The notes below the pieces were generated by a model. It was not told the DNA's origin. It ran no database searches and saw only the letters and a program-made list of their open reading frames with translations. A stretch of DNA of 64,000 bases. Source: Verminephrobacter eiseniae EF01-2 (GTDB lineage Bacteria > Pseudomonadota > Gammaproteobacteria > Burkholderiales > Burkholderiaceae_C). The stretch's first letter is position 1. The number at the start of each line of letters is the position of its first letter. Positions 1,837 to 28,540 of the stretch are shown here, piece by piece. The position numbers and the translations under genes were made by a program. The DNA lies in the NCBI RefSeq assembly GCF_000015565.1, contig NC_008786.1, positions 3,832,501 to 3,896,500 of the forward strand, in the 5' to 3' direction.

Positions 1837-3273
<1,437 letters not shown>

Positions 3274-3527: not shown

Positions 3528-3651
3528 GCCAATGGCCGGCGTCTGCGAGCATACCCTGCCCGGCTCCTGTCTGAAGTCCGGCCGGACCAGCACCTGATAT
3601 CGACCGGCCCGGCGCCCCGCAGCCCTGCGGCCAACCCCATCCCGCCCCGCC

Positions 3652-4734: not shown

Positions 4735-4798
4735 TGGCCCGATTGTCGCATTGGGCCGTCTGCGCCATGCCCCGTGTTTTCCGAGACCGAGAGCCACC

Positions 4799-5284: not shown

Positions 5285-5324
5285 GCCGGCGCAGCGTCGT
5301 CCTCCCCCCCACCATCCATCGACC

Positions 5325-5999: not shown

Positions 6000-6007
6000 G
6001 GGCCGCC

Positions 6008-7000: not shown

Positions 7001-7009
7001 CCGGATGGG

Positions 7010-7651
7010 TCACCGAACGGCTTTGCGCCCCCCCAGGCGCGCCTCCTTGCCCGCGATCAGCCGCCGGATATTGTCCCTGTGCCGCCAGGCCAGCAGCAGC
7101 GCCATCGCCCCCATCGCCGCCGCCATCGGTGCCGCGCCCCCCATCAGCAGGTAGCAGACCGGCGCAAACGCCGCAGCCACCAGCGAGGCCAGCGACGAAT
7201 AGCGCGAAACCAGGGCCACGACGAGCCAGGCCACGGCCGTGGCCAGCCCCAACCAGCCGCTGATGCCGAGCAGCACACCCAGCGCCGTGGCCGCGCCCTT
7301 GCCACCGGCAAAGCGGAAGAACACCGGCCACAGATGCCCCACGAATGCCGCCAGCCCCACGCTGGCCGCGCAGCCATCTTCCAGACCATGGGGGCGCCCG
7401 AACTCCAGCACCAGCGCCACCGGCAACCAGCCTTTGAGCGCGTCGAGCAGCAGCGTCACGACCGCCGCAACCGGGCTGCCGGAGCGCAGTACATTGGTCG
7501 CGCCGGGGTTCTTGCTGCCATAGGTGCGCGGATCGCTCAGACCCATGAGCCGCGTCACGATGACCGCGAACGACAGCGAGCCCAGCAGGTAGGCGGCCAC
7601 GGTGGCAAGTACGGGATACAGGGCGGTCAAAACGACTCCTTGGGAATTCAT
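7010..7651 (-). CDS. plsY: Glycerol-3-phosphate acyltransferase PlsY
   Basis: PlsY transfers the acyl group from acyl-phosphate to glycerol-3-phosphate, the first step of phospholipid synthesis, in the inner membrane. The 213-residue protein has several membrane spans and the family motifs GSKNPGATN (residues about 45-53) and GHLWPVFFRFAGGKGAAT (about 105-122). I chose the ATG at 7651. The frame is open upstream and would add a Lys-Pro-Asp repeat segment encoded by the 9-bp tandem repeat, which no PlsY has. Its stop lies 9 bp from the end of the convergent HD-GYP-like gene. Confidence 0.93.
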   Translation of the reverse strand: MNSQGVVLTALYPVLATVAAYLLGSLSFAVIVTRLMGLSDPRTYGSKNPGATNVLRSGSPVAAVVTLLLDALKGWLPVALVLEFGRPHGLEDGCAASVGLAAFVGHLWPVFFRFAGGKGAATALGVLLGISGWLGLATAVAWLVVALVSRYSSLASLVAAAFAPVCYLLMGGAAPMAAAMGAMALLLAWRHRDNIRRLIAGKEARLGGRKAVR

Positions 7652-7660
7652 GGCGGTTTT

Positions 7661-7696
7661 GTCGGGCTTGTCGGGCTTGTCGGGCTTGTCGGGCTT
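7661..7696. repeat. 9-bp tandem repeat, GTCGGGCTT x4
   Basis: Four exact copies of GTCGGGCTT lie 10 bp upstream of the plsY start codon. Because the unit is a multiple of three it keeps the upstream frame open and encodes Lys-Pro-Asp repeats on the minus strand. It occupies the place of the plsY ribosome binding site and leader, so copy-number changes could alter translation. Confidence 0.9.
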
Positions 7697-7843
7697 GCGG
7701 GTGTTGCGCGCCAGGCCCGCTTGCACGCGGCATGGCCCGAGCGGCCACGGCGGCCTATTTTGCCAGCACTGTCTTGCCGCGCCTCAACAAAGAGTCATGG
7801 CCGCAGGCCGCCAACGGCGTTTCGTTTTGCGCAGGTGGTCGAG

Positions 7844-8084
7844 TTATCCACAACGGCCAAGGTTTTAAGGTTTTATATATGTTTTAAGAGTTTTAGAGCG
7901 AAAAACCACCGAAAAATCGTTACAAATCAATGACTTGCATGGGTGCCCGGTTCCTGATGGACGGGCTATCCACAAGCTGGACGCTCGAAACAGGCCGGCT
8001 CCGTCGATTAGGAACCGTTGGCGACAAAATCCCCCGACCAGGTGGCCGCCCTGTCGCCATCTCTGCGTCTATCAGGAACCGGCG
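7844..8084. other. Origin-like region: DnaA boxes, AT-rich tract, short repeats
   Basis: A perfect DnaA box, TTATCCACA, is at 7844-7852 and an eight-of-nine match, CTATCCACA, at 7966-7974. Between them is a clearly AT-rich tract at about 7861-7935 in otherwise GC-rich DNA. ATCAGGAACCGG occurs at 8071-8082 and as its complement at 7947-7958, and ATTAGGAACCG at about 8007. This lies at the 3' side of a broken plasmid replication gene, so I read it as the remains of that plasmid's origin. It is not the chromosomal oriC, as dnaA, dnaN and gyrB are absent. Confidence 0.5.
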
Positions 8085-8672
8085 CGATGACGCGCCTTGC
8101 TCGATGCGCTGGCCGCTGGACTGGTGACGCCGGCACGCTGGCCGCACGGGCCTTGCCAGCAGCGCGGCGGGCAAGCCGATACAGGAACCGGCCTATGCCC
8201 GGCTCGATCAGAAAATACTCGGGATGGACGGTCAAGACGGCCGGGGATTTCACCTCGACCACCTCGCTATAGAGCCACTGCGGCACCTCGATAGAAACGC
8301 TCGTAAGCCGGCCATTGTCGGCATAGGAAACCGTCTCGTAGCGTTAATCAGTCCTACCCCCTTGGCCGTGCGCAAAGCCCGCTTGCCCTTGGCCTGCGTC
8401 ACCATCTCCACGAACGTGGTGCCAAGGCGCTTCAACGCCCCTTCGATTTCCTCGTACTGGCGGCCACCATCGGAGCGGCGGCAGAACTTGAGAATTTCCG
8501 ACATATGCGGTCGAAAGATGCGGCTCGGCTTCTCGCCACGCCCTTCGCGGTAGCGGTTCATGGCGTCGGTCAGATGAGAAATTGCCATCAGCACTATGTC
8601 ATAGTCCCAAACTGAAGCCATGCCGGCCTCGCCTGAACTCGCATTCGATCCGGCCAGCTTGCATTGCATCAC
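8008..8672 (-). pseudogene. repA: Plasmid replication initiator RepA (RPA family), frameshifted
   Basis: Two overlapping frames together match the plasmid 'replication initiator protein A' family. The frame 8250..8672 gives SVWDYDIVLMAISHLTDAMN and RQYEEIEGALKRLGTTF. The frame 8008..8286 continues with VPQWLYSEVVEVKSPAVLTV and EYFLIEPGIGRFLYRLARRA. A small indel at about 8343-8350, near the LINA segment, breaks the frame. The N-terminal hundred or so residues and the C-terminus are also missing or out of frame. The gene cannot make a working initiator. It lies beside DnaA boxes and three toxin-antitoxin genes, as expected for an integrated and decayed plasmid. Confidence 0.8.
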
Positions 8673-8708
8673 CGCCAGCTCACATTATTTGCAAATCACC
8701 CACTTGCA

Positions 8709-8734
8709 CAATCGTACCAATGTTGGTACGATTG
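8709..8734. promoter_or_regulatory. 26-bp palindrome, probable toxin-antitoxin operator
   Basis: CAATCGTACCAA, a two-base TG centre, and TTGGTACGATTG form a perfect 12-bp inverted repeat. It ends four bases before the start codon of the HigB-like toxin gene. The position fits an operator bound by the downstream helix-turn-helix antitoxin for autoregulation. Confidence 0.75.
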
Positions 8735-8738
8735 CATC

Positions 8739-9089
8739 ATGCTTAGCCCAACTCCTCCTATCCTCCTTGTTTTCTTTTTCAAATACGAGTCGGGCAATGA
8801 GCCAGTGCGAGACTGGCTGAAAAATTTGCCAGCCATCGAGCGGAAGGCTATCGGCGAAGATATCAAAACCGTGCAATTCGGCTGGCCATTGGGAATGCCT
8901 TTGGTGCGCAAAATGGGCAAGGATCTTTGGGAAGTGCGTATCCACCTTCAGACTCGAATTGCCCGTGTTTTATTCACCGTCAACGGGAACACCATGGTGC
9001 TGCTCCATGGGTTCATCAAAAAATCCAGCAGCACCCCGGCGGATGACCTCGCGCTCGCGAAAAACCGACTAAAACAAGTCAAGGAGTGA
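8739..9089 (+). CDS. HigB/RelE-type toxin (phage Gp49-like family)
   Basis: The 116-residue protein contains WLKNLPAIERKAIGEDIKTV, LVRKMGKDLWEVRIHL, RVLFTVNGNTMVLLHGFIKK and ends with lysine-rich helix residues. This is the pattern of the HigB-like/Gp49-like branch of RelE-fold mRNA interferases, which cut mRNA on the ribosome. The frame is open from 8664, but the ATG at 8739 gives the family start and sits directly after the operator palindrome. The antitoxin gene follows after 5 bp, in the toxin-first order typical of HigBA. Confidence 0.87.
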   Translation: MLSPTPPILLVFFFKYESGNEPVRDWLKNLPAIERKAIGEDIKTVQFGWPLGMPLVRKMGKDLWEVRIHLQTRIARVLFTVNGNTMVLLHGFIKKSSSTPADDLALAKNRLKQVKE

Positions 9090-9094
9090 AGACC

Positions 9095-9379
9095 ATGGAA
9101 AACAAACACATCGGCAGCAATTTCGACGATTTTCTGGCCGAGGAAGCTTTATTGGAAGACGCGATGGCGACGGCTATGAAGCGGGTCATTGCCTGGCAGA
9201 TTGAGCAGGAAATGAAAGCACAGAAGCTTTCCAAGACGGCCATGGCCACCAAGATGCATACCAGCCGTGCGGCGCTGAATCGGTTGCTCGATGCCACTGA
9301 TACCAGCCTGACCCTGACAACGCTGGCCAGCGCCGCTGCCGCTTTGGGAAAGCGGGTCCGGGTAGAGTTGGTTGTTTGA
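9095..9379 (+). CDS. HigA-like antitoxin, XRE helix-turn-helix
   Basis: The 94-residue protein carries a helix-turn-helix of the XRE type at about residues 42-80 (LSKTAMATKMHTSRAALNRLLD), preceded by an N-terminal helix that probably covers the toxin. It should bind the HigB-like toxin and repress the pair through the 26-bp palindrome. AAGGAG lies about 11 bases before the ATG at 9095. A GTG at 9086 is an alternative start. Confidence 0.87.
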   Translation: MENKHIGSNFDDFLAEEALLEDAMATAMKRVIAWQIEQEMKAQKLSKTAMATKMHTSRAALNRLLDATDTSLTLTTLASAAAALGKRVRVELVV

Positions 9380-9389
9380 TTCCAGCATG

Positions 9390-9698
9390 TCAGGCTGAGG
9401 TATAGCTCGCCAGCGTCGTGAGCGCCTTTTCAAACGTCCGAAAGCGCACCGGGCGGCCTTCGTGGGTGATGGCGTGCAAGGTCTGTCCCTGACGGGCATA
9501 CAAGGCGAAGCCTTGGCCGTCGTCGGGGTAAAGCACGGCCTACACGCGCTCCGCGTTCGGGGTGTCGCAAGCGGCATTCAGGCGGTGGAACGTCCACGCC
9601 CTGCCCTTCCTTACCTTCGGTTCGATCTGCTCAAAAAAAGCGTTTGCCATCGTCTCTGCCTGTTCGGTCGATACGCCCAATTCTTGGTTCGTGTTCAT
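9390..9698 (-). pseudogene. Unknown ~100-residue protein interrupted by one amber stop
   Basis: From the ATG at 9698 the minus strand reads 51 codons, then TAG at 9540-9542, then about 49 codons to TGA at 9390. The frame is otherwise unbroken. Before the stop it reads NAFFEQIEPKVRKGRAWTFH, and after it PDDGQGFALYARQGQTLHAI and RPVRFRTFEKALTTL. I do not recognise the family. Its place among plasmid-type genes suggests an accessory plasmid protein. Either it is a young pseudogene or the stop is a sequencing or suppressor case. Confidence 0.6.
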
Positions 9699-9791
9699 CT
9701 CTGCAGCTCCTGAAAAAACCGGCGTTAGCGCGCCGGGTTGGTATTGGTGACAAGTAGATCTCGCCGGCGAGATTCGTTTGTCACCACATCG

Positions 9792-9968
9792 TCACGGCGC
9801 TTTCCGCGCCGCGTGTTCTGTCGGCCTGCCCTCTCCCAAGCGGGCAAGCTGGGCATCCATCCGGGCCATGACTTCCTCATGCGAGATGCTTGGCCGGGGG
9901 TCGTCGATGGCCGCCTGAATCTCGGCGGCCAGCCAACGGGTGTAAGCGTCTCGGCGCTGCTGTTTCAC
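9792..9968 (-). CDS. StbD-like stability determinant / antitoxin, orphan
   Basis: The 58-residue protein reads RWLAAEIQAAIDDPRPSISH and EEVMARMDAQLARL, which fits the small 'stability determinant' antitoxins that accompany ParE/RelE toxins. The GTG start at 9968 overlaps the vapC stop in GTGA, so it is translated from the same mRNA as the VapBC-like pair. No RelE/ParE toxin follows it; the next leftward gene is a different, broken one. It therefore looks like an antitoxin that has lost its toxin and been appended to another pair. Confidence 0.6.
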   Translation of the reverse strand: MKQQRRDAYTRWLAAEIQAAIDDPRPSISHEEVMARMDAQLARLGEGRPTEHAARKAP

Positions 9969-14216: not shown

Positions 14217-14962
14217 GCTTTCCCTTCCGGCGCCGGCGCTGTGGCCATGGGCGCGGGCGCTGTGGCCATGGGTGGCGCCGCAGGGCTTTGGGTATAGCGC
14301 TTTTCGAGCCAGCGGCCGATCAGGGTCAACGGGTAGCACAGCGCGAAGAACGTCAGTGACAGCAACGCAAAGACCTGCAGCGATCGGTTGCCCAGGCGAT
14401 CGTTCAGGTCGAGAAACTGCTGGGTGGTCTCGGCCAAGCCTATGAGTGAGCCTAGCGATGTTTCCTTGATCAGGATCACGAGCTGGCCGACGATGCTGGG
14501 CGTCACGTTGCGCATGGCCTGTGGCCCGACGACGCGCCGCAAAGCGGCCAGGTGGCCAAAGCCCATCGCGCGCGCGGCCTCGTACTGGCCCCGGTGCAGG
14601 GCCTGCATGCCGGCGCGGATCGTCTGCGACAGATAGGCGCCGTTGAAGATCACCAACGTCACCAGCACCGAGGTGAATCCCGACAGCCCATGGCCCATCA
14701 GCCATGGCAAGACCAGGTAATGGATCCACAGCAGATGCATCAACAGCGGCACGCTGCGCATGTAAAAGACCAGTCCGGTCGAGGCCGCTGCCACCGCTGG
14801 CCAGGTCGATGTCAGGCCCAGTGCCAGGATCACCCCGGCGGGCAAGGCCAGCACCAGCCCGGCGAGCGCCAGCAGCAGCGTCAGCACCACGCCGCCCAGC
14901 GGTCCGTTCGGGTAGTGGCCGATCAGGATCTGCAACCAATACCCGTGCACGATCTCAAGCAA
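14213..14962 (-). CDS. Polar amino-acid ABC transporter permease (second subunit)
   Basis: The 249-residue membrane protein has about five spans and the His/Glu/Gln-type permease signature: [18 protein letters not shown] near residue 66 and the EAA loop [20 protein letters not shown] at about 128-147. It should pair with the permease encoded just upstream. The C-terminus carries a tandem PMATAPAP duplication from a short DNA repeat, outside the membrane domain. The gene overlaps its upstream neighbour by 8 bp and the ATPase gene by 4 bp. Confidence 0.93.
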
Positions 14963-15650
14963 CTGCGCCTCCTTTGGCCCAGCGCTCGTAGCGCATGGCC
15001 AGCAAAGTCAATAGCGAGCAGACGATCAGATAGGACAAGGTGGCGAACGCATACGGCTCGACGATTCTGAAAGTGGCGTCCTGGACCCGCCGCGTGGCGT
15101 TGATCAACTCGACGACGCCTATCATCAGCGTGACGCTGGTGTTCTTCGTGATGACCATGGCCTGGCCGATCAACGGCGGAATCACGGCCTCGATGGCCTG
15201 CGGAAAAATCACCCACCGGAAACTGCGCAGGAAGCCGAACCCGAGGGCGCGCGCGGCTTCGATCTGTCCGCCGGAGATCGAGCGGATGCCGCTGCGGATG
15301 TCCTCGGCGACGAAGGACGCCGAATACACGATCAGCGCGGTGGCCCCCGCGATCATGCTCAGGTCCTGCTCGTAAATCCACTCCTTGACCGCCAGCGGCA
15401 AGAGTTCGGTGGCGCCGAAGTACCAGAACATCGCGTGCACCAGCAGCGGCACGCAGCGAACGAAGTCGACATAGGCGGCGGCGATGGCGCGGATCGGCCG
15501 CCAGCGCGACAGACTGGCCAGCGACACCAGGGTGCCGAGCAACAAACTGCCGGCGATCGCAATCGCGGCAAGCTCCAGCGTGGTCGCCAGGCCGGCGAGC
15601 AGCGAGGCGCCGTATTGCGCCCAGAGCACGACCGTCGCGTTCCATGTCAT
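14955..15650 (-). CDS. Polar amino-acid ABC transporter permease (first subunit)
   Basis: The 231-residue membrane protein shows the same family signature: VDFVRCVPLLVHAMFWYFGA and the EAA loop IEAARALGFGFLRSFRWVIF, with five predicted spans. I chose the ATG at 15650. The frame continues upstream into the MITE and would add about 50 arginine-rich residues that are plainly element sequence. The MITE separates this gene from the binding-protein gene, so expression may depend on read-through across the hairpin or on a promoter inside the element. Confidence 0.93.
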   Translation of the reverse strand: MTWNATVVLWAQYGASLLAGLATTLELAAIAIAGSLLLGTLVSLASLSRWRPIRAIAAAYVDFVRCVPLLVHAMFWYFGATELLPLAVKEWIYEQDLSMIAGATALIVYSASFVAEDIRSGIRSISGGQIEAARALGFGFLRSFRWVIFPQAIEAVIPPLIGQAMVITKNTSVTLMIGVVELINATRRVQDATFRIVEPYAFATLSYLIVCSLLTLLAMRYERWAKGGAVA

Positions 15651-15667
15651 GGGGGTGTTCCTGTTGG

Positions 15668-15803
15668 GTGTCGCGTCACCGACGCATCTGTCGGTCTGCG
15701 CGGGCCATCGAAGCGCATCGCGGCGTTGCATCGCTTGCCGATACGCTCGGTCGCTCGGTATGGGCGGAGCGCAGCCTGCGACATCTGAGCGGTGACGCGA
15801 CAC
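15668..15803. mobile_element. MITE-like element, copy 2 (shortened, inside an operon)
   Basis: The ends GTGTCGCGTCACCG and CGGTGACGCGACAC match copy 1, as does the interior from the GGCCATCGAAGCGC segment to GCATCGCTTGCC. The right half is shortened and rearranged, and the CTAG flanks are not preserved. It is the oldest-looking of the four copies. It lies between the binding-protein and permease genes of the sulfur amino-acid operon, where a stable hairpin in the mRNA could shield the upstream message. Confidence 0.85.
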
Positions 15804-15824
15804 TGGCCGCGCCGACGCCTGCGG

Positions 15825-16649
15825 TCATTGCGTGTCGGCAGAGAAGGTGAAGTTGCGCTTGCGCTTGAGCGGTGAGTTGGCGCCGAACCAGCGGTCGTAG
15901 CTGACCTGGGCCTGGCCCGATTTTTCCATGTCGAGCATGGTCTGGTTGACGGCGGCCAGCAGTTTGGGCCGCTCCTTGTGCACGCCGATACCCAGCTTTT
16001 CGAGCACCAGATATTCATTGAACATCGCGTATTTGCCCGGGGTCGAGCGCATCAGGCCGAGCAGCGTCGTCTCGTCGGCGGCCATGGCTTGCACCTTGCC
16101 TTGTTCCAGCGCCAGAAAGGCCGTGGCCGGCGTCACGAAGCCGATCGGCTTGGCGCCCGGTATCTTCTGGCTCACGGCCGGACCGGTGAGCCCCCCCTCG
16201 ATCACCGACACCCGCTTGTTCTCCATGTCCGACAAAGCCTTCATCGGACGGCTCGCCGGCGTGATGATCGCGGTGCCGGTGACCAGGTGGGGGTGGCTGA
16301 AACTGATCAGTTCCTGGCGCTCGGGGGTGATCGTGACCGAGGCCAGCGCCAGATCGACCCGGCCCTGCTGCACTTCGGGAATCCGGGTGGCCGTGGTGAC
16401 GAATTTCAGTTCCGGCTTCACCCCCAGGGTCTTGGCAACGGCCTCGCACAGATCGATGTCATAGCCCACGTTCTTGCGGGTTTGCGGGTCTTCGATGTAG
16501 GAAAAGGGAACGGTATTGCTGCCCACGCCGCAAATCAGCGTTCCGCGCGCCTTGATGGTGTCGATTTCGTCTGCGCTGGCCGTGCCGGCCAGGCTTGCCG
16601 CGAGCACCAGCAAGGCTGCTGCCGCGCACGAGGTGATGGCGTTTTTCAT
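15825..16649 (-). CDS. Polar amino-acid ABC transporter substrate-binding protein
   Basis: The 274-residue protein has a signal peptide (AALLVLAASLAGTASA, cleaved near residue 26) and the SBP_bac_3 fold: GTLICGVGSNTVPFSY, VGYDIDLCEAVAKTLG, ELKFVTTATRIPEVQQGRVD and LALASVTITPERQELISFS. The Arg in TATRIP and the Asp of GRVDLA contact the amino-acid backbone in this family. Whether it prefers cystine, cysteine or another ligand cannot be read from sequence. The operon contains a thiol dioxygenase and a MetC-like lyase, so a sulfur amino acid is my inference. It begins 28 bp after the dioxygenase gene. Confidence 0.92.
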   Translation of the reverse strand: MKNAITSCAAAALLVLAASLAGTASADEIDTIKARGTLICGVGSNTVPFSYIEDPQTRKNVGYDIDLCEAVAKTLGVKPELKFVTTATRIPEVQQGRVDLALASVTITPERQELISFSHPHLVTGTAIITPASRPMKALSDMENKRVSVIEGGLTGPAVSQKIPGAKPIGFVTPATAFLALEQGKVQAMAADETTLLGLMRSTPGKYAMFNEYLVLEKLGIGVHKERPKLLAAVNQTMLDMEKSGQAQVSYDRWFGANSPLKRKRNFTFSADTQ

Positions 16650-16677
16650 GGGTTCATGGCTCCTGCAAGAATGCGCG

Positions 16678-17304
16678 TCATGCGCGGGCATCGGTCGCCA
16701 GCCTCGACGGGGCGAGATTTTTCAGATTGAAGCGCGTCACCGCGCCGGTTTGCAGGTCAAACCCCTGGCGCTCGTCCAGCGCTTCCAGCGGCCTGCCATA
16801 CAGGTGAAAGTGCCGCGTGCCGCCGTCGCCCTGGATGTGAATGCTGTGTATGTCTTGCGCCAGAAACTGAATGCCGGCACCACGGCGCACCGTGAATTCC
16901 CTCTCGAGCCTGATCTGCGCGCGGGTCGCGTCCGAGCCGTCATCGAGCCGCTGGTAGATCCGGTTGAGCTCCTCGCCCTCCAGCGCCTCGATCACTGCCC
17001 AGGTCATGTGGTTGTGCGCCAATGTGCTCTTGCCCGGGTTGAGCACGTTCAGGTAGAGCGAGAAATCGGTCTGCGGATCGGTATGGACAAGATAGCGCAC
17101 GCTGCCCGCGTCCTGCGCACCCGGCGGTGGAAAGCTCGTTGCCGGAAACAGCGCTGCGTGCTCTGTCACCAGTTTGCGCAGTTCGGCGCCGACCTTGGAC
17201 AATGCCGCGCGCGTCGTTCCTTCGCTTTCGAGATGCCGGCGTACCGCCTGCATCAGCGCCTTGGCAGCCGCATCGCGGCGCTGTGGCAGGGACAGCTCAT
17301 TCAT
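16678..17304 (-). CDS. Cysteine/thiol dioxygenase-like cupin protein
   Basis: The 208-residue cupin has the thiol dioxygenase pattern. TLAHNHMTWAVIEALEGEE provides two of the iron-binding histidines with the H-x-H spacing, and IHSIHIQGDGGTRHFHLYG provides the C-terminal histidines. Family members add O2 to cysteine or 3-mercaptopropionate to give the sulfinate. The first gene of the operon overlaps it by four bases (ATGA), which suggests that the rhodanese protein and the oxygenase are made together. The exact thiol substrate is uncertain. The usual Cys-Tyr crosslink cannot be judged from sequence alone. Confidence 0.85.
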   Translation of the reverse strand: MNELSLPQRRDAAAKALMQAVRRHLESEGTTRAALSKVGAELRKLVTEHAALFPATSFPPPGAQDAGSVRYLVHTDPQTDFSLYLNVLNPGKSTLAHNHMTWAVIEALEGEELNRIYQRLDDGSDATRAQIRLEREFTVRRGAGIQFLAQDIHSIHIQGDGGTRHFHLYGRPLEALDERQGFDLQTGAVTRFNLKNLAPSRLATDARA

Positions 17305-19013
17305 CGCACATTCTCCTGGGGTTGCAAAAAATTGTCCTGCGCTGCGGCAGCGCAGTTGAAATCGACGCCGCTTTCCTTGCTGATTTGCCCGAGCAGATCG
17401 ACCTCCCACTGCAGGTAGGCCGTCATCGCGGCGCTGCGATCGTCATGGTCGTAGGGGCTGTACCAGATGTCGTCGTTGCGGTCAGCCATGTGCTGGAAGC
17501 CGGTCGCGCAAGGCAGTCCCGCCGTGCGCCAAGCCTGCGTGCCGCCACGCAGCACCCGAACCGGCACGCGGCTGGCAGCTTGCGCATCGGCAGCGGCCAG
17601 CGCGGCGAACTGCCCATCGCGCGAAGCGAGCACCAGCAGGCGGTGCTCCGGCAGCCGGCCCAGGCTTTGGCGCAGGCGTGACCGGACCGCAAACCAGGCG
17701 CCGGGGATATGGCCTGCGGCATAGGTCAGGCTGTCGTCCAGATCGACGACCAGCGCCTGGCCTGGCTGCTCCAGCCATGCCTTGAGCTCGAAGACCGGGA
17801 GCCAGTCGACCTGCGCCAGGTGCTCGCCGCCGAGAATCCTCGGCCCTTGCCAGCCACGGCGGAGCGCCGCGCCTGCGGAATGCAGCCCATCGCGCAGCAC
17901 ATGCACATCCTTGCAGCCCATTTGCAGCAGCCACGAGGCGGTCACCCGCGCGCGCACGCCGTTGTCGTCGACCAGCACCAGGCAAGCGTTGCGCACACCC
18001 ACGTAATCGTCGGTGGACTGGACCAATTGCCCGCCCGGAGCACTGCGCGAGCCGGGCAGATGGCCGGCCTGGTATTCCTCGGGCGTTCTGACATCGAGCA
18101 GGTAGAGATTGCGCCCGCTGCGCTGCCGCAGCGCGGCCAACTGCCCGGCATCGATTTCGCTCACGCCGAAGCGCCGCGCAATGCGCTGCGATGCCGCGAT
18201 GGCCTTGTGCAGCGCTCGTGGCGTGGGCGGCGGCGCCACTTCGGTCCGAGCATGCACCAGCGTGCCGCCGCTCAGATGCCATCCGGCGGTGCCGTTCTCG
18301 ACGACGACGACGGGGTTGGCAATGCCGGCGTTGATCAGCGCCTGTGCGCCGATGATTCCACGGGTGCGTCCGGCACAGTTGACGACGATCGTCGTCTGAT
18401 CGTTGTCGACCAAACCGAACACGCGATGAACCAACTCGGCGCCCGGGCAGGCGATGCCGCCCGGCAGGCTGTAGCGGTGGAACTCCTCATAAGGACGGCT
18501 GTCGAGCAGCAACATGTCCTTGCCCGATCGCATCCAATCGCGCAACGTGGCCGCAGAGATGCAAGGCGTCGCGCACGCGTGCTCGACATACTCCCCGAAA
18601 GCCTTGCTCGGCACGTAGACCCCCGAGAAAACCTGCAACCCGGCCGCCTTCCATGCGCTCAGCCCACCGCCGAGCAGGCTCAGGTTCGAGTAGCCCCAAG
18701 CGGCCAGCCGGCCGGCAGCGATCGCCGCCATGCCGTCCTGCGCGTCGCAGTCGTCGACCAGCACCATCCGCGTGTCGCGCCGCGGCACCAGCGCGTCGAC
18801 GAGCCATTCCATCCGGTTCAGCGGCAGCGAGACCGCCGCAAAGATATGCCCGGCGGAAAACTGGCCGCCGTCACGCACATCCAGCAGCGCCAGTTCTGCG
18901 CCGTCGGACAGCAACCGCTGTAGTTCGATGGCGCTCACCCGGCGCCGGGCAAGCGGGGACGCGGAGCCGTCGTCACGGGACTTCGACAGGAGAAGGGGTT
19001 GAGCTTGTGTCAT
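17301..19013 (-). CDS. Four-domain rhodanese-like sulfurtransferase
   Basis: The 570-residue protein is built of four rhodanese-like repeats, at about residues 27-130, 150-255, 285-390 and 415-510. Each has the LLDVR or VVDLDD strand and the AGHIPGA-type loop. Domain 2 has a classic active-site loop VNCAGRTRG with the persulfide cysteine. Domain 1 has a cysteine in VDDCDAQDG. Domain 3 (VDDNGVRAR) and domain 4 (LASRDGQF) lack it, so they are probably structural. It should carry sulfane sulfur between partners and is co-translated with the thiol dioxygenase. It is the first gene of the seven-gene operon. The ATG at 19013 is chosen over an in-frame start at 19211, which would cross the regulatory region. 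Confidence 0.88.
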   Translation of the reverse strand: MTQAQPLLLSKSRDDGSASPLARRRVSAIELQRLLSDGAELALLDVRDGGQFSAGHIFAAVSLPLNRMEWLVDALVPRRDTRMVLVDDCDAQDGMAAIAAGRLAAWGYSNLSLLGGGLSAWKAAGLQVFSGVYVPSKAFGEYVEHACATPCISAATLRDWMRSGKDMLLLDSRPYEEFHRYSLPGGIACPGAELVHRVFGLVDNDQTTIVVNCAGRTRGIIGAQALINAGIANPVVVVENGTAGWHLSGGTLVHARTEVAPPPTPRALHKAIAASQRIARRFGVSEIDAGQLAALRQRSGRNLYLLDVRTPEEYQAGHLPGSRSAPGGQLVQSTDDYVGVRNACLVLVDDNGVRARVTASWLLQMGCKDVHVLRDGLHSAGAALRRGWQGPRILGGEHLAQVDWLPVFELKAWLEQPGQALVVDLDDSLTYAAGHIPGAWFAVRSRLRQSLGRLPEHRLLVLASRDGQFAALAAADAQAASRVPVRVLRGGTQAWRTAGLPCATGFQHMADRNDDIWYSPYDHDDRSAAMTAYLQWEVDLLGQISKESGVDFNCAAAAQDNFLQPQENVR

Positions 19014-20048: not shown

Positions 20049-20096
20049 ATGACAACGACTATGACAACGACTATGACAACGACTATGACAACTACT
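20049..20096. repeat. 12-bp tandem repeat, ATGACAACGACT x4
   Basis: Three exact units of ATGACAACGACT and a fourth ending ACTACT lie between the convergent lysR gene and the restriction-subunit gene, and run into the stop codon of the latter. The repeat marks the left boundary of the defence locus. Confidence 0.88.
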
Positions 20097-23000
20097 GCAC
20101 CAACGCCATCAACTTCCCAAAACTGTCCACCACGTCATACCTCACATTCGCAGAGTTGATCCCATTGAAGAACTTGCGCGCGCACTCGGTCTTGGTTTCT
20201 TCAATTTTATTGAGCACCATGGATGAAATATCCCCTTTGGTCTCGGCAACGAAATACACATGCTTGACCATCCCCTCCTTGAACGAAATGGCCCAGTCGG
20301 GGGTGTAGTTGCCCACGGGGGTGGGGATATGGAAGCCGCGTGGCAATTTGGCGTAGACGACGACTTCGGCGCAGGTGTCCAATTCTTTCGCAAAATCCCG
20401 CTCGATGCCGGAATCGGTGACCACGTAATCGTAGATATGCCGCCGGAGCTTGTCCCCGGCCTTGCTGAAATCTTGCCCGGATTGCGCCACCGTGAAAATA
20501 TCCAGATCAAACCTGTCCTCGGCCAGATCATAGGCCAGGTGCTCGATGAGCATCGTCCCCTTCTGCTCGTTGATCAGCCGTATGGCCTCGGTGATGAAAC
20601 TCTCCGGGTTGGTGCAGAACTGCGCGAATGCGGCGGCATCGATCCCCTTGAGAATCTCTGCCGTCGTGCGTCGGGTCAGTTGGGTGCCGTCGGCGATTTT
20701 GCCGATCAGGTCGTACTTCACCTTTGAATGAATCGAATGCGCACTCTTTTCGGTCTTGCTGCTGCTGAGCACGAAGACCCTGCGGTTATCCAGTTCGTCA
20801 TGGCCCACATGGTCGGCCTGCTCGCCGGTTTGAATCAGATAATGCAGGGGCGGCACGCGCAGATTCTTGTCCAGTTCGGCGATGGCCTTGTCGACCAATT
20901 CGGCGGAATCAAAATCAACGCTGTAAAACGCCTTGCGATTGATCCGGTTCCATAGTTCCTTGAACTCCTGCTTGTCGAAGTTGTCATTGAGCGGATTTGT
21001 CTTTGAACGGCGACCATCGCCGATCTTGGGCAACTGGCTGTCATCAAAGACGCTATCGATCAACTGGTACACCTGATCGGCATGGGCTTGCAATTCCGGT
21101 GGCAGCATTGCCGGGGTGCCGTCCTTTCTGGCCTGGTGATAAGCCTCCGTGATGTGATTCGCATTGCCCCTGTAACCGTTCTTGAGCAGGTACTTGTAAA
21201 TCTGCCTGGCCAACTGCGGCGTGACCTCGACATCGCCGCTTGCGGTCTTGAGCAGTTTGCCGGTGAACCAGGCTTCATCAGCCACCCTGGGCCGCGCCGA
21301 CAAGGATTCGCTGATATCCTTCTGCAGCGCCGCCACAAAATCCTTGTAACTCTCGCTGGCCACCACCGTCAGCACATTCACCTCATGCACGGTAGCGGGA
21401 TCATCCATCCGGTCACCGCTCTGGTTGACAGACAAGCGCAGACCGCGCCCCACCTCCTGGCGCCGCGACACGGTATTGTCGCTGTGCTTGAGCGCACAGA
21501 TCACGAACACATTCGGATTATCCCAACCCTCACGCAGGGCGGAGTGCGAAAAGATGAAGCGCACCGGCTCGGCGAAGGATAGCAAGCGCTCCTTGTCCCT
21601 CAAAATCAGATCATAGGCATCCACGTCATTGGACAAACCCGCATTCTCGCCGCGCTTGTCCATATCGGGATCGGCAAGCCGCTTGGTTTTTTTGTCGATG
21701 GCAAAATAACCGCTATGCGTTGCTGCGGCATCCATGCCCTTCAGGTACTGGATATAGGGACACTGGGAGGGCATTTCATCCAGACTCAGCACCTCGTTCA
21801 GATACTGGCGATATTCCTCCTCGAAAATCCGCGCATAATCGCCCTTCTCATCGGCTGCAGAATAATCGCGGTACTTGGCCACTTCATCGATAAAGAACAA
21901 GGTCAGCACCTTGATGCCTTGCTGGAACAGCGCCCGTTCCTTATCGACGTGCGCCTTGATCGCCTCGCGAATCTGAATGCGGCGCAGCGCCGCCTCGTCC
22001 ACATCCCCAAGAACCTCGCCAGCGCAGAGTTCCACGCCATTGGTGAAACCCAAGGTATCGGTATTGGCGTTGATATCCGACACCACATAGCCATCATGGT
22101 ACTGACCAAGTTCATCCGAAAGGTCGAACAGATTATCGCCCCTGGAGAGCTTGCGCACGATGCGCCTGATCTCGCCACTCTTGAGCTTGCACTCGAATTC
22201 GACACGCGCCTCGGGCGGTTTCTTGGTGGAAGTTTCGATGGACTGCAAATACAGATAGGCATTGGTTCCCGCCAAACCCTTCACCGCAATGCCACGCACG
22301 GCGATCTTCTTGACCAGTTTCTGGTTATAGGCATCCAGTGCGTCCAGGCGATGGATTTTATTGTGCGTGGTCTTGTGGGTGGCCGAATAACGCAAGGCCA
22401 TCAACGCCTTGAATGCCTGCAGAGACTCCTGGGTCTGCGCACCTTCCATTTTCTGCGGCTCGTCCAGAATCAGGATGGGGCGGTTGGCGCTGATCACATC
22501 AATCGGCTTGCGGGACTGGAAATCGTCCAACTCTTCATAGATACGCCGGTTATCCGCCCCGCGTGCAGCAAACGCCTGCACATTGATCACCATCACATTG
22601 ATGCCGGCATCTGAAGAAAAACTCTCCAGATGATGCAATTGCCTGGAGTTGTAAATGAAAAAGCGCGCCTTTCTGTTGTAGGTCTCCTGAAAATGCTCCG
22701 CCGTCATCGCCAACGACTTCGCCACACCTTCACGGATGGCGATGCTGGGCACAACGATGATGAACTTGCTCCAGCCATATTGCCTGTTCAGCTCGAAAAT
22801 GGTCTTGATGTAGCAATAGGTCTTGCCGGTGCCGGTTTCCATCTCGATGTCGAGATTGAGCCGACTGACCTTGGTTTTGATCAACTCGTCGGACTGCGGC
22901 AGGTTCTGCTGGCGCTGAACCTGGATGATGTTCTTCAGCAAGCCGTCGTCTGTGAGCATCAGATCGGCGTTTTTGAATCCGTCTTGCATGTCTTGCGCAA

Positions 23001-23151
23001 AGATGGTTTCGGTGCTACCCGTCTTGGCTCGGCCCGGGTCGATGCGATAGCGGGTGGCTGGCGCCGAGGCAGGGGGCTGGCCTTTGAAGCAGTCGAGTAC
23101 GGCTTGCACGGCTGCTGTTTGGTAGGGTTGGGTTTTGAATTTGAGTTTCAT
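20092..23151 (-). CDS. Type III restriction-modification Res subunit (helicase-nuclease)
   Basis: This 1019-residue protein has the Res layout. The N-terminal segment is [20 protein letters not shown]2 motif I is [11 protein letters not shown] at residues about 105-114; motif II is [11 protein letters not shown] near 230; and motif VI lies in [19 protein letters not shown]. The C-terminal PD-(D/E)xK nuclease is visible as [10 protein letters not shown] and FVAETKG. In type III systems Res needs a Mod methyltransferase for DNA recognition, and none is encoded next to it. Its ATG at 23151 overlaps the HerA stop in ATGA; an ATG at 23160 is also possible. Its base composition is close to the helicase gene and less AT-rich than the two genes between them. 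Confidence 0.92.
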
Positions 23152-24872
23152 TTGGTACATCCGTTATTCGTCGAGGCAGCCGCTTTCCAATGGGATGAAT
23201 ATTGCGGCCCTTCAGATTGAGGTGTTGCCTGTGGCGGTATAATATGTACTGGCAATGGCATCGGCGAATCGACTCCAACAAGGATTGCCTCGCCTTGGCC
23301 TAACGTGGGCAAAAATGCAGCAGCAGAAGCATCCATGTTTCCGCAAGCCCTCTCTACAACTTGCCTGTCTTTCTCATTGATTAGACGATGAACAATAAAC
23401 ATCCCCATCTGACTGAGTACATCTTCAGGAATATCCCTTGGTCGTTGAGTTGCCAGCACTGTAGTTAATCCGTACTTGCGCCCCTCTTTTGCAATCACAC
23501 CAAATGACTCCAGGGACACCCTGCTGTATTCGTCCCCCAAAGATTTATCCAAAAACTGATGAGCTTCATCAAGTACAACTACAGTTGGATTGGTGCGAAA
23601 CGAGCCAGTACGAGCCAACTTCAACAGATAGCGACCGACTGCATTTGTAACCAATTCACGGGTATTGTGTTCAAACGGAAGGTACTCCATAGAAATTCGG
23701 AGAGCTGAATGATTTGATTTCATAAAATCCTCTACCATTTGTGGCAGTGGGATCAAGCCATCTGGTTTAAAGATGCATGCCATGAACGGGGATTTGAGGG
23801 TGGTTTCGATACGCGCAATAAGACTGGTGCAATAGGTCAGCTCGTTGCCCGCATCCCCCCACTTGGTATGATCTTTACCGAAATTTGCGGAAGGATAAGC
23901 GCATTCTTCCTGAATTTGTTTCGCCAAAAACTGTATGTCATAGAAAGCACCGTCTTGATCAAGCAATGCGGTATTTTGAATCAACTGTTGCTGAACTATT
24001 TCTTTGGTCCTATTAATTTTTGGGATGTAACCTTCAGGTGCCAGATCTTTGCAAAGGTGCGCAAGTTTGAGGCTTCGCAGAGCCTCACGTAACTTCGGTG
24101 CCTGAGACGCTCCGGTAGGATTGAAAAGCACAAATATATCTGACTCACTCAATTGATAGAAAGGATAGCCGACGAATTCCCGCTTGTCCTCGTCATTTTC
24201 CTTTTGTCCCCCTAAATAAACGTGCCTGACGCCAGTATTCAATGCCTTGAATTCACCTGTCGCATCGAACAGAATTACTTTCCCATTCAGTCGAACTATT
24301 TCTTCGACAAGACGCGCAACCGTCCAACTCTTCCCGCCGCCTGTCGTTCCCAAAACTGCACAGTGACGACCAAAAAGAGCTTCGGGAGTCAGCGACACTA
24401 CTGTGTTCAATGAATGTGACAGTGAAGCCAAGCGGATGCTTCGATCAGTTTCGTACCCTTGCTCTATAGCGTATTTTATCAATGAGGGATGGGCCGAAAA
24501 TACGTGTTGTGCAATGCGTGGGAGCGCTGGTATTCCACGAACGGCTTTTCCTGATGCAAGTTCGAGTGAGGTAAGTAGCTGAACCAGTCCTATCGGATTG
24601 GCAACGCTGTCAGTGTCTGCGGTGGGTTCTACCGTCAATCTGTCGCGCTCAGGAAGTTTTACTTCTGTAATCCGACCAACAATTGCGTATTCTTCGCCCT
24701 CAATCAGAACAAACTCGCCAACTTGTCCGGCAGGCATAGCATAACCCGCATGGTGGCCTGACACGGGCGAAGCTGCGTGAGGAAGATTTACCCTGACCAT
24801 ACTCGGATCAATCTGACAGACGGTGCCAATGTAACGAGCCGGATCAAATGGCGCTACTGGAAATCTACTCAT
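23148..24872 (-). CDS. HerA-like hexameric ATPase/translocase (DUF87)
   Basis: The 574-residue protein has an N-terminal HAS-barrel-like segment ([17 protein letters not shown]), Walker [21 protein letters not shown] at about residues 174-193, Walker [21 protein letters not shown] at about 445 and [19 protein letters not shown] with the sensor motif. HerA ATPases form hexameric rings. SIR2-HerA pairs are known anti-phage systems in which the two form one large complex that depletes NAD+ and attacks DNA. Start and stop overlap both neighbours by four bases (ATGA), so SIR2, HerA and Res are translationally coupled. The gene is visibly more AT-rich than its outer neighbours. Confidence 0.93.
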
Positions 24873-26149
24873 GCTGTATCTCCTTCAATGCCGCGCATTC
24901 GTACCATGTGCTTTTCGAGATCAGTTTCCGCCACCATATCAGGTATTTCTCTGGCGATATCTTCAAATGTACCATTCAAAAATGTCAACCTGGCATCGCC
25001 TTGATCCATCATCTGCATGATGACTTTTAGATATTTATTTGCATTTTCCTTTTTCAAATTGGATTCCAAATATGGATCAACGACCACAACCTTCAAACCA
25101 AGATTTGATCGGATGGCAGACAAAACAGGTTCGGCAATGTGGTTATCATTAAATCCAAATCCAACAATCACTAACCCCGTATTAGGTTCACGTAAGGCTG
25201 CTTGGAGTGCGGCCATCATTTCAAGATAAGGTTGTGAGAATGCTTGTTCGTACTTGCTGCTACGCGGATAAATCAGCAATGGTTTATCGGTATTGTGTTT
25301 CTTTTCAATATCACTTTCACATCGCTCCCAATCAATTGAACCGTGCAATTTGTAAAGATGAAACACATTCGGTATGAATGCCGATGCGTTACCATCAGTG
25401 CCGCGACGTACTATGTCGTAGGTGAAATAAACAGGATCGAATGTTGGTGGTAACGTGGGAGAAAACCCATCGATTACAACAAAGCGCCCGCTTTTGGCCG
25501 CGTGCTCAAAGCAAAGATCATAGTTGGTTGTAAATATCTTTGTCCTACCCTTGCCCGATGAACGACGTGCGATTCGTTGAAGGAATGTGCGATGTATAGG
25601 CAGCGGATCTGTACTTTTTAAGAAGTCAACAGCGGCACGAATTTCTTTTTCCGCCAATGATTTGAATTTTTCAAGGCGTTTCAATTCACCGTTACGCAGG
25701 AAATTTTCAGCGACCTTGCACGCAGATAGTAGTTCTTCAATATTCTTATTACCAGCCGGGTGTCTTACGCTGGCAAGGAGCTTTGTCCACAGTGCTTTAT
25801 TCTTTGAAGTATATGCGGTTTCCACTCGTTGCCAAAGGTCTTGCATAGTCGGGGCCTTGCACTTCGAGGGATCTGAGTCGTCCAGCACGCAAAGTGAAGT
25901 CCCAAGGCCAGACAATACAACCAGATTCTGACAGCGAATTACCTCCGACAGCGAACGCCGAATCTGGTCGGTTGCTTTATTTCGTTCAGGTTTCTTATCT
26001 GCTGACTGCTGCCCATTACTAGTTTTGGGCGAAAGCCATGACTGATTGGTATATGCTGATCTTATTTTCATATCGCTATTTCCATTTTTTAGGCAATCAT
26101 CTGGATCGATCAAAACCTGAGAATTACTGTTACCCGTTATTTCGTTCAT
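24869..26149 (-). CDS. SIR2-family NADase, defence type
   Basis: The 426-residue protein carries the SIR2-like Rossmann core used in anti-phage systems. NLVVLSGLGTSLC at residues 76-87 is the NAD-binding glycine motif, KIFTTNYDLCFEH at 204-216 holds the key Asn-Asp, LYKLHGSIDW at 265-274 holds the catalytic-type histidine, and VIVGFGFNDNHIAEP lies at 328-341. There are no zinc-finger cysteines, unlike deacetylase sirtuins. GAGG lies five to six bases before the ATG at 26149, only 9 bp past the helicase stop. It pairs with HerA downstream. Base composition is clearly AT-rich, which points to separate origin. Confidence 0.93.
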   Translation of the reverse strand: MNEITGNSNSQVLIDPDDCLKNGNSDMKIRSAYTNQSWLSPKTSNGQQSADKKPERNKATDQIRRSLSEVIRCQNLVVLSGLGTSLCVLDDSDPSKCKAPTMQDLWQRVETAYTSKNKALWTKLLASVRHPAGNKNIEELLSACKVAENFLRNGELKRLEKFKSLAEKEIRAAVDFLKSTDPLPIHRTFLQRIARRSSGKGRTKIFTTNYDLCFEHAAKSGRFVVIDGFSPTLPPTFDPVYFTYDIVRRGTDGNASAFIPNVFHLYKLHGSIDWERCESDIEKKHNTDKPLLIYPRSSKYEQAFSQPYLEMMAALQAALREPNTGLVIVGFGFNDNHIAEPVLSAIRSNLGLKVVVVDPYLESNLKKENANKYLKVIMQMMDQGDARLTFLNGTFEDIAREIPDMVAETDLEKHMVRMRGIEGDTA

Positions 26150-26159
26150 GAGTGCCTCA

Positions 26160-28250
26160 TCAAATACATTTAACTTCAGTGGATGGTGACAACAGGGCGT
26201 CGATGATTTCCAGATCGCCCTTGAGTTCGTGCTCCCAGGAGGGGAGGTCTATATCGGCGAGTTTGATTTTGATTTTGTCACCGATGGTGGCGTCAAGGGA
26301 TGAAGGATCGTCGCTGTCGCTGTCCCATGGCAGATCATCTTCGTCGAGGTTTTCCAACTGCTCAGTCTGGATGCTGGCGGCGTTGCCGGTCTGGTGAAAG
26401 GCGCTGATCGTGTCGAGCATGTTGGTGTGCTTGTCGCGCAGTGACTGTAGCGTCAGGCGGAAGGATGCGACCGAGCTTTCCAGGCGCTTGAGCAGGTTGA
26501 TCGTCATCAAGGCTTGCAGGCTTTTTTCGCGGTCGGTTTGTTTGAATCTGCCTTTGCCTGCGACTTGCGTGTCGTATTGCTCTTCGTATTTTTTGAGCCG
26601 GCTCGGCAGGATGTGGCTGACAGGGGCGTACACGGCGAGTTTGAGGCGGGACAGTTGCTCGAATATCTGGTTGAAGCTCATCACCTCGCTGCGGGCATTG
26701 ACCACCAGGGGGCAGCGCAGCGACAAGGGCTTGCGGCGTTCGGGGAAGGGGCCGATGTCCTTGGTGTCGTAAAAGGTCTGGATGTGCTTGCGCGAGCGCG
26801 CAATGGTGACGCTATCGAGTAATTCAAAGAAGTCGAAATCCAAAGCCTCCAGAATGGCGCGCGCGGTGCGCTCCGCTGGCGGGCGTTTGGCCCAGTCGTT
26901 GAAGCGGGCCTGCGCGGTGCGGAAAATGTCTTCCACCGTTTTGCCGGTGCGCAGCTTTTTGCTGAGTTGGCCGGAGTCGCCTTCGTAGGCCAGCGCCAAT
27001 TGATTGCGCAGGTCGTTGAAGCGGTTGTTGACCGGGGTGGCGGAGAGCATCAGCACCTTGGTTTTCACCCCTGCCTTGATGACTTGGTTCATCAGTTTCT
27101 GGTAGCGGGTCTCGCGCTCCTTGAAGGCGTCGTTGTTGCGGAAATTATGCGATTCGTCGATGACAACGAGGTCGTAGTTGCCCCAGTTGACGCGGTTGAG
27201 CGGCGTGCCGGACGATGCGCCACTGGTGCGGCCAAGGTCGGTGTGGCAGAGCACGTCATAATTGAAGCGGTCGCGGGCGAAGATATTGGTGGTGAGGTTG
27301 CGGTTGTAGTTGAGCCAGTTGTCGGCCAGTTTTTTGGGGCAGAGCACCAGCACCGAGCGATTGCGCAATTCGTAATATTTGACCACGGCCAGGGCAGTGA
27401 AGGTTTTGCCCAGGCCAACGCTGTCGGCCAGGATGCAGCCGCTGTAGGTTTCGAGTTTGTTGATGATGCCGGTGGCGGCATCCTTTTGGTAGTTGAAGAG
27501 TTTTTTCCAGATGAGCGTGTCCTGATAACCCGTGCGGTCGTTCGGCAGGACATCTTCGTCGAGGTCGTTCAAAAACTCATTGAAGATATGATGGAGCATC
27601 AGGAAGTAGATGTTTTCGGGTGAGTTCTCCTGGTACACCGAGGCGATATGTTCGAAAATCTGCACCGTCACATCTTCGAGCTTCTCGCTGTCTTGCCAGA
27701 TTTGATCGAACAGGCTGAGGTAGCTTGCGGTGAAGCCCGGTTCGTCCATTTTGTTGACGAAGTTGGAGATGGCGTTGCCCGGCTGGTAGACAATATCGAC
27801 GGCGGTAAAGCCGTGCAGGGGCATGTAGGTGGTGTCCGTGGCGGCACTCTGCACGCAGGCGAATTGCTGCATGGGGGCTTGGTGGCGATTGCTTTTGAAG
27901 CTGGCCTTGCGGCGTATCCAGTCGGCGCACTCTTTGGCAATGGCGCGCTGATTGAGTTGGTTGCGCAACTGAATCTCGAATTCGCTGCCGTGCAGACTGC
28001 GTTCCCGATCGAGTTTGGGGATGTGGAATTCCTTGCGCTCCTTGCGAATCTTGTCCGTGACTTGGTTGGCGACGAAGGTGGGCGCGGTGAAGATGAAGCG
28101 CAGTTCGTCGATTTTTTCCAACTCTGCCTTGAGCGCTTCAAATGCGTACATCGAAAAGCAGGATGCGGCAATCTTCAGGCGGGCGCCGGGTTGGAGGGTC
28201 CGCTTCAGGTCGTCGCCGAGCAGGTGGGTGATGTTGTCGATGAGTTCCAT
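26160..28250 (-). CDS. SNF2-type helicase with PLD-like N-terminus, C-terminally truncated
   Basis: The 696-residue protein has an N-terminal PLD-like region (LKIAASCFSMYAFEALKAEL and IQLRNQLNQRAIAKECADWI) and helicase domain 1, with Walker A ILADSVGLGKTFTALAVVKY, DEAH-type box LVVIDESHNFRNND and motif III LMLSATPVNNRF. It stops after HELKGDLEIIDALLSPSTEV. Members of this family known to me continue for several hundred residues with helicase domain 2 (motifs IV-VI), which is wholly absent here. The SIR2 gene begins 10 bp beyond the stop. The protein should therefore lack normal translocase activity unless another subunit completes it. The ATG at 28250 is preferred to a TTG at 28253. Confidence 0.85.
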   Translation of the reverse strand: MELIDNITHLLGDDLKRTLQPGARLKIAASCFSMYAFEALKAELEKIDELRFIFTAPTFVANQVTDKIRKERKEFHIPKLDRERSLHGSEFEIQLRNQLNQRAIAKECADWIRRKASFKSNRHQAPMQQFACVQSAATDTTYMPLHGFTAVDIVYQPGNAISNFVNKMDEPGFTASYLSLFDQIWQDSEKLEDVTVQIFEHIASVYQENSPENIYFLMLHHIFNEFLNDLDEDVLPNDRTGYQDTLIWKKLFNYQKDAATGIINKLETYSGCILADSVGLGKTFTALAVVKYYELRNRSVLVLCPKKLADNWLNYNRNLTTNIFARDRFNYDVLCHTDLGRTSGASSGTPLNRVNWGNYDLVVIDESHNFRNNDAFKERETRYQKLMNQVIKAGVKTKVLMLSATPVNNRFNDLRNQLALAYEGDSGQLSKKLRTGKTVEDIFRTAQARFNDWAKRPPAERTARAILEALDFDFFELLDSVTIARSRKHIQTFYDTKDIGPFPERRKPLSLRCPLVVNARSEVMSFNQIFEQLSRLKLAVYAPVSHILPSRLKKYEEQYDTQVAGKGRFKQTDREKSLQALMTINLLKRLESSVASFRLTLQSLRDKHTNMLDTISAFHQTGNAASIQTEQLENLDEDDLPWDSDSDDPSSLDATIGDKIKIKLADIDLPSWEHELKGDLEIIDALLSPSTEVKCI

Positions 28251-28540
28251 CAAGTGTCGGCTTTTGAAGGCATGGCGTGGCCCGGAATTTGCCGATCGGG
28301 CGGCGCAGACGGCGAAAAAGAGGGTGGAAACGGATTCAGATCGTCGTCGATTCTAAATGCCGGCGTATCTTCTGGCCGGATTCGCTCGCAGATTGATACG
28401 CAGGCATCCAATGCCTGAATGCTGGAGGTTGTGCTGGCGTGTAAGCTATACGGGTTTCGGCGCCGGGGCGCTTTGCTTTGGCGTCGCCTTGCAAGCCTGC
28501 GCTTGCCAGCGCATGTTGCGCGCCAGGAGATGAGGCACCG

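Follow-up and report, generated by a model that had tools for sequence, protein, structure and literature searches.

We have analysed a 64-kb window of the Verminephrobacter eiseniae EF01-2 chromosome (NC_008786.1, positions 3,832,501 to 3,896,500) in which a SIR2-HerA gene pair lies inside the remains of a type III restriction-modification (R-M) operon that has lost its Mod gene. The best overall explanation, to which we give a probability of roughly 78%, is that an intact-looking NADase defence rides a dead or gutted type III R-M operon. Coordinates below are positions of the window, and the four genes concerned all run leftward on its minus strand.

Four open reading frames (ORFs) without internal stops follow one another in the order helicase (28250-26160; 696 aa from the ATG at 28250, the TTG at 28253 being a mechanical start only), SIR2 (26149-24869, opening at the ATG at 26149), HerA (24872-23148) and Res (23160-20092). 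The helicase stop lies 10 bp from the SIR2 ATG, SIR2 and HerA overlap by 4 bp (ATGA), and HerA overlaps Res by a further 4 bp (ATGA) at 23151, the start used by the Res family, or by 13 bp if Res begins at the ATG at 23160. These ORF calls agree with a first-pass annotation, made from the sequence alone, in the gene order, the 10-, 4- and 4-bp junctions, the overlap kept with Res and the lack of a Mod gene beside it. The annotation had also described SIR2 and HerA as more AT-rich than the outer genes. Measured in 400-bp windows, GC content is ~0.40-0.47 in SIR2 and 0.45-0.50 in HerA, 0.52-0.62 in the helicase and Res, and 0.59-0.72 in the flanks. Composition is therefore not uniform: the 8-kb locus stands apart from the surrounding chromosome, and GC steps again where SIR2-HerA begins and ends. 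The view that SIR2-HerA is a later, AT-richer arrival in a helicase-Mod-Res operon is supported.

What had been called a truncated helicase reads as an in-frame fusion of a helicase, up to about codon 687, with the last nine codons of Mod. The helicase part (26196..28250) is of the C3a139 type (HKD+Snf2; best PADLOC model, 2.2e-66, over positions 163-538 of 948), holds the first RecA domain only and ends in ...LEIIDA. Pfam recognizes SNF2-rel_dom, ResIII and DEAD in it and gives no match to Helicase_C, so that domain 2 is absent, as the annotation had said. The full-length homologues listed are ~1,090 aa long and 79-84% identical; past the joint, intact helicases read LLASMNKIT in four of five cases and LLTSMNKIT in the fifth. 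The window protein ends in IIDALL-SPSTEVKCI, and the Mod proteins of related operons (locus labels are ours) end in SPATEVKCI (L027, L028, L120, L121), SPSTEVKCI (L122) or SPHTEVKAI (L029). At the DNA level the helicase (...ATCATCGACGCC) runs into CTGTTG (26190..26195), a 4-6 bp microhomology common to the LL codons of the helicase and of Mod, then into the Mod tail and stop (26160..26189; SPSTEVKCI*, translated in frame as the end of the helicase), and then into the canonical 10-bp Mod-Res spacer and ATGAA (26145..26159), like the empty junction when set against L120, L121, L027 and L028. The joint was placed by eye against the helicase DNA of L121, L028, L027, L178 and L179 and the Mod DNA of L120, L121, L028 and L027. 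Since the helicase C-terminus is the in-frame Mod tail, met at a shared CTGTTG, the deletion is in frame and lies at this microhomology. When the gene coordinates of L120 and L028 are subtracted, with indels ignored, its size comes to ~3.8-3.9 kb; it took away domain 2 of the helicase, DUF4391 and almost the whole of Mod. Furthermore, as the Mod tail, its stop and the spacer all precede SIR2, the SIR2-HerA pair occupies the gap from the Mod stop to the Res start and did not replace the helicase end. The first-pass annotation was thus right that the helicase end and Mod are lost, but not that the module took their place.

A stable short form of the helicase was considered and rejected. Among the best 120 of 7998 homologues scored, Helicase_C is present in 117, and the three without it are the window protein (P0121), P0238 (691 aa) and P0221 (816 aa). 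Of these, only the window protein ends in a Mod tail; within that set a short helicase does not recur. The fragment carries 13 private changes in 337 sites, somewhat many for its branch as a raw count, and would be non-functional; the genome, which is rated 100% complete, gave no second copy of the C-terminal half of this helicase. Just upstream, 28250..28285 holds a probable WYL remnant, the last 11 codons and stop (PGHAMPSKADT*), with the stop overlapping the helicase ATG. By eye, 6 of its 11 residues are like the WYL tail of L178 (PGYATSPKADS*), and a complete WYL gene stands upstream in L027, L120, L178 and L179.

At the other end of the locus, the Res gene (20092..23151 from the family start) is complete and encodes an EcoP15I-like helicase-nuclease, which matches PADLOC REase_III (1104.6 bits), Pfam RE_endonuc (1.7e-30) and PDB 4zcf, the EcoP15I Res (1e-72). 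The SF2 motor and the endonuclease domain are present, and the motifs GTGKT, DEPQ, GRGLR, PDWA and ETKG are kept. A 12-bp tandem repeat (ATGACAACGACT) lies in four copies at its stop codon (20049-20096). Beyond the nine codons and stop described above, no second copy of the deleted Mod was found in the same complete genome. We also rejected a Mod elsewhere serving Res: the sole genomic match to a Mod of this family covers 130 residues at 33% and falls in the methylase of a different R-M locus (L203). PF01555 (N6_N4 methylase) has six matches in the genome, five of them over the cut-off. One N6_N4 DNA methylase does lie in the window (57614-58633, 339 aa), but it is unmatched by the deleted Mod's family at E <= 0.001. 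In EcoP15I, DNA is recognized by Mod and cleaved by Res, according to the portion of the source available (PMC4490356), and excerpts of a second source state that Mod expression raises the amount of Res and postulate that Mod stabilizes or protects it (PMC3874151). By analogy, a Res without its recognition subunit is most likely inert, which would also account for the cell having tolerated the loss of Mod; restriction by this operon is probably dead.

The SIR2-HerA pair, by comparison with its relatives, looks intact. From the family start M27, the first residue in 21 of 23 SIR2 relatives, the SIR2 NADase gene spans 24869..26071, and M27, N209 (in TTNYD) and H269 (in LHGS) are invariant in an alignment of 24 sequences. 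The 26 codons before M27, from 26149, may be junction sequence or old Res start context read in frame, and their translation is uncertain. SIR2 matches Pfam SIR2_2 (3.2e-12), PADLOC SIR2 (2.3e-89, score 298) and PDB chains 8yhx, 8j4u and 8w9l; HerA (23148..24872, 574 aa) matches DUF87 (2.2e-19) and PADLOC HerA (6.9e-178, score 590.6); and both proteins match chains of solved SIR2-HerA complexes (8yhx, 8j4u, 8woc and others). In the Vibrio cholerae Nezha system, changes in the SIR2 active site abolished immunity, deletion of herA raised the plaquing of three phages, and immunity remained after everything else in the island had been deleted, as far as the excerpted report goes (PMC11559045). N209 and H269 were equated with N168 and H227 of that system by motif rather than by direct alignment. 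Because the SIR2 motifs and the ATPase domains of HerA are kept, because the proteins match chains of the complexes and because of the V. cholerae data, we expect the pair to be an autonomous NADase defence.

The cargo interval that holds the pair (23151..26149) extends over ~3.0 kb from the old Mod-Res spacer to the Res ATG. DNA similarity to the nearest SIR2-HerA relatives stops at 23184-23199, where the blastn alignments end; the idea that HerA runs past its usual end was dropped, as 574 aa falls within the 559-579 aa of eight relatives. Imperfect copies of ACGAA(A)TAACGG stand close to both ends of the interval with a score equalled in 53 of 5000 mononucleotide shuffles, and a target duplication is only suggested by this near-repeat. 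A scan of the locus for promoters and terminators gave nothing above shuffles. In a search of the genus for an empty site, the phosphatase/kinase flank was matched in six relatives and the LysR side was unmatched there, and the island's outer edges are therefore unmapped.

Comparison with related operons places the pair in a recurrent position. These operons have the order [WYL]-SNF2 helicase-DUF4391-(UvrD-like)-Mod-Res and include a Raoultella plasmid (L027), an Escherichia coli plasmid (L029), L120, L121, L028 and others. We compared junctions in 66 loci, 28 of them from named plasmids and genome draws (L027-L029, L120-L122, L125-L132, L178-L191; L123, without Res, left out) and 38 from viral-collection contigs (L204-L243; L216 and L227, without Mod, left out), counting as cargo a junction gap of >300 bp. 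The Mod-Res junction holds cargo in 24 of the 66 and is empty (~0-50 bp) in 42; the DUF4391-Mod junction holds cargo in 19/52 and the helicase-DUF4391 junction in 2/51. The gaps counted in L183 and L231 are only 370 and 310 bp, respectively, and the members of two apparent near-duplicate pairs (L208/L236 and L239/L243) were counted separately. L125-L132 are eight of 60 plasmid rows listed (273 records matched), L125 having been chosen partly for its large-looking spacing. In the genome-drawn subset (L121, L178-L191) the Mod-Res junction is occupied in 7 of 15; this subset came from 16 non-window genomes with a Res at least 45% identical, one of which (G512) was without upstream sequence, and it leaves out Res matches of 37-40%. 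Thus, cargo recurs at the Mod-Res junction, and a slot there has better support than any hybrid enzyme; the window pair, with its tight junctions between the Mod stop and the Res start, belongs in it, although neither SIR2 nor HerA stands at the Mod-Res junction in any of the 66.

Much of the cargo at this junction matches known or candidate defence families, abortive-infection types included. Pfam identifies YhcG/DUF1016 (L122, L182), Fic (L182), AAA_21 with DUF4276 (L125, L126), AlbA_2 with HATPase_c_4 (L128, L191, L230), HATPase_c_4 alone (L188), RhuM (L187, L229), ORF6N (L190), PLD-like (L186, L207), Abi_C (L223, L224) and HEPN_AbiV (L221), and gives no match for L234. Among the cargo tested with PADLOC, L122 matches PDC-S02, L125 HEC-01A/B, L187 PDC-S05 and L223 AbiJ, and L230 has a weak match (Aga_SIR2 class, 2.9e-7). 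A cargo protein of ~224 aa (L206:6422-7099, L208:9298-9969, L209:9290-9964, L222:9310-9984, L236:9298-9969) has no match in Pfam (L206, L208, L209, L222) or PADLOC (L206) and is a candidate new defence gene. In L122, L187, L190, L223, L224 and L234 the cargo gene nearest to Res shares 4 bp with the start of Res, as HerA does in the window. Such an overlap is thus common to unrelated cargo, and the HerA-Res coupling is ordinary for cargo and no mark of partnership. In the parts of the open-licence literature available we found no description of cargo between mod and res, which is weak evidence of novelty.

Several further features were seen in these and similar operons. Tandem Mod genes precede a single Res in L222 (two, 5018-9306) and in L189 (three, 3601-9431). 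L203 (G000:C2:4584000-4600000, 86-9936) is a second type III-like R-M locus in the V. eiseniae genome, with a Res-like ORF of 1020 aa (ResIII 7.5e-10), an AAA_21 ATPase of 399 aa, a DUF4276 protein of 196 aa, the methylase of 972 aa and, by eye, another AAA-like ATPase of 583 aa; its ATPase-DUF4276 pair is again placed between Res and Mod. In L130, a Methylotuvimicrobium plasmid operon, a DUF4297-HerA pair (14444-17402; by PADLOC, DUF4297 2.2e-43 and HerA 1.5e-172) lies ~2.3 kb downstream of Res, with the HerA gene 3.5 kb past Res. HerA systems thus do occur near such operons.

Relatives of the pair were sought among 84,980 species genomes, from which the best 80 of 150 SIR2 relatives, with three viral contigs, gave 83 loci; the stretches around these were often <10 kb per side where contigs end. 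HerA matches in 81 of the 83 (two partial), and the pair, its two genes again overlapping by 4 bp, is also found away from the Mod-Res operon. Within the stretches read, a Res of the window type occurs in none of the 83, and L051 holds a distantly related methylase (33%). The four-gene arrangement, which the first-pass annotation had proposed to look for elsewhere, was found in no other species; the comparison with related helicase-Mod-Res loci that it had also proposed mapped the break points and corrected those it had given.

Of 48 ORFs found as neighbours of SIR2-HerA relatives, 35 were given to Pfam, and three of these are R-M cases. In Ottowia L038, where HerA is 84% identical, the pair begins 20 bp after a type I operon of the order HsdR-(339 aa)-HsdM-HsdS; in the Comamonadaceae metagenome-assembled genome L051, HerA overlaps a PF01555 methylase by 4 bp, with RhuM next; and in Variovorax L034 the SIR2 gene lies ~0.1 kb downstream of the end of a type ISP enzyme. 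Among the same 35 neighbours, reverse transcriptase (RVT_1) matches occur in six and GIY-YIG-type T5orf172/MUG113 matches in four. A gene of the latter type lies directly before SIR2 in L044 (8826-10022); similar genes of ~400 aa stand upstream of SIR2 in L055, L067 and L102. On L118, a viral-collection contig, SIR2-HerA is followed 5 kb on by a WYL regulator (17981-18913) that shares 81% identity with its counterpart in the type III operon from Raoultella.

From this we infer the following order of events and set of activities. The ancestor would have been a type III R-M operon with accessory genes, of the order given above. A Nezha-like SIR2-HerA pair would then have entered the Mod-Res slot, with SIR2 placed after the Mod stop and the HerA stop overlapping the Res start. 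A separate in-frame deletion at CTGTTG would have fused the helicase to the end of Mod, leaving the reading chain downstream open. SIR2-HerA would form a complex that works by itself, hydrolysing NAD+ when the cell is infected and so aborting phage growth.

Other readings of the locus deserve consideration. The first-pass annotation had left a choice between a hybrid system and a remodelled wreck, and it is the wreck that our comparisons favour. In a working hybrid, HerA (or SIR2-HerA) would replace Mod as the partner through which Res senses DNA, with the genes acting together; the complete Res ORF with its catalytic motifs and no clear excess of changes, the HerA-Res ATGA and the open reading chain across the deletion are all consistent with this. 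Nevertheless, HerA in place of Mod or of the helicase domain is unsupported by the 83 SIR2 loci and the 66 junctions, the same overlap with Res is seen in YhcG, RhuM, ORF6N and Abi_C cargo, and target recognition in EcoP15I resides in Mod, as the accessible text of PMC4490356 has it, so we consider a hybrid improbable. A single replacement, in which SIR2-HerA DNA on its arrival took the place of the helicase end, DUF4391 and Mod, as the first-pass annotation had it, would account for both changes in one operon and for the missing intermediate. Between the helicase break and the module, however, ~45 bp are native to the operon (Mod tail, stop, spacer and ATGAA), so that the two novel joints are separate, and we consider one event improbable. 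An artefact of assembly or sequencing might be suspected of an arrangement seen in a single species, but near-identical SIR2 (P0001; two member sequences) and helicase (P0121; three member sequences) proteins occur on four and five contigs, respectively, including, beside the window's own 5,566,749 bp, a second chromosome-size one of 5,545,361 bp (on which their linkage is unread), and the joints are in frame. We regard an artefact as very improbable.

The cargo might also act as a guard on the R-M complex, sensing its state in the manner of PrrC in EcoprrI, with SIR2-HerA doing so, now or formerly, through Res. The wealth of abortive-infection-type and candidate defence families in the slot is in keeping with this idea, as are the embedding of PrrC in the type IC locus EcoprrI, described in the part of PMC12707154 available, and the SIR2-HerA relatives found next to a type I HsdS (L038), a type ISP enzyme (L034) or a methylase and RhuM (L051). 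Against it stand the lack of a window-type Res beside the 83 SIR2 relatives, the persistence of Nezha immunity in V. cholerae without the rest of its island, by the same excerpted account (PMC11559045), and the broken R-M enzyme of the window; a guard arrangement is therefore unlikely here. Similarly doubtful is a broader proposal in which the Mod-Res junction of accessory-helicase type III operons is a swappable slot whose abortive-infection effectors, translationally coupled to Res, back up or monitor restriction, SIR2-HerA having outlived Mod and kept Res as a working partner.

Some observations weigh against an autonomous defence on a dead operon. The intermediate that it predicts, an intact Mod followed by SIR2-HerA-Res, was found in no genome. 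The characterized SIR2 and HerA equivalogs are distant from the window proteins, which miss the curated NCBIfam cut-offs (HerA_antiphage, 161.1 bits against 800; SIR2_antiphage, 123.5 against 500); the pair therefore resembles SIR2-HerA/Nezha by sequence but falls outside those equivalogs. Furthermore, Res has 12 private changes among ~415 sites invariant in 15 others, where L122 has 12, L029 14 and L130 11; its pairwise dN/dS with seven relatives is ~0.10-0.12 where computable; and the window branch is long, at 0.22 for Res and 0.17 for the helicase. We do not read decay of Res from these values, as they give no clear signal of it. The low level of change would fit either a recent deletion or a Res still under selection, two cases that are not separable here.

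The locus is thus related to three known kinds of system. Like SIR2-HerA/Nezha, it has a SIR2-like gene followed by a HerA-type ATPase gene with a 4-bp overlap and with the Asn and His motifs kept, but its pair lies inside a type III R-M operon, at the Mod-Res junction, and is far from the curated members. It shares its Res family, operon order and spacer with EcoP15I-like type III systems of the accessory-helicase form (L027, L029, L120), whereas it is without Mod, DUF4391, helicase domain 2 and most of WYL, so that the operon encodes no modification enzyme. Finally, it resembles PrrC/EcoprrI (PMC12707154) in having an abortive-infection-type effector embedded in an R-M operon, but the effector and the R-M type (type IC there) are different and, with the window's R-M enzyme incomplete, a PrrC-like trigger is doubtful.

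In summary, this one odd locus leads to a testable rule, that the Mod-Res and DUF4391-Mod junctions of such operons take cargo while the helicase-DUF4391 junction is nearly closed. As the Mod-Res cargo tested is rich in known and candidate defence families, this junction is a place to seek new phage-defence genes, of which the ~224-aa protein without a Pfam match is an example. The window also suggests that cargo may survive the R-M system that hosts it, a point of interest for how such operons decay without harm to the cell.

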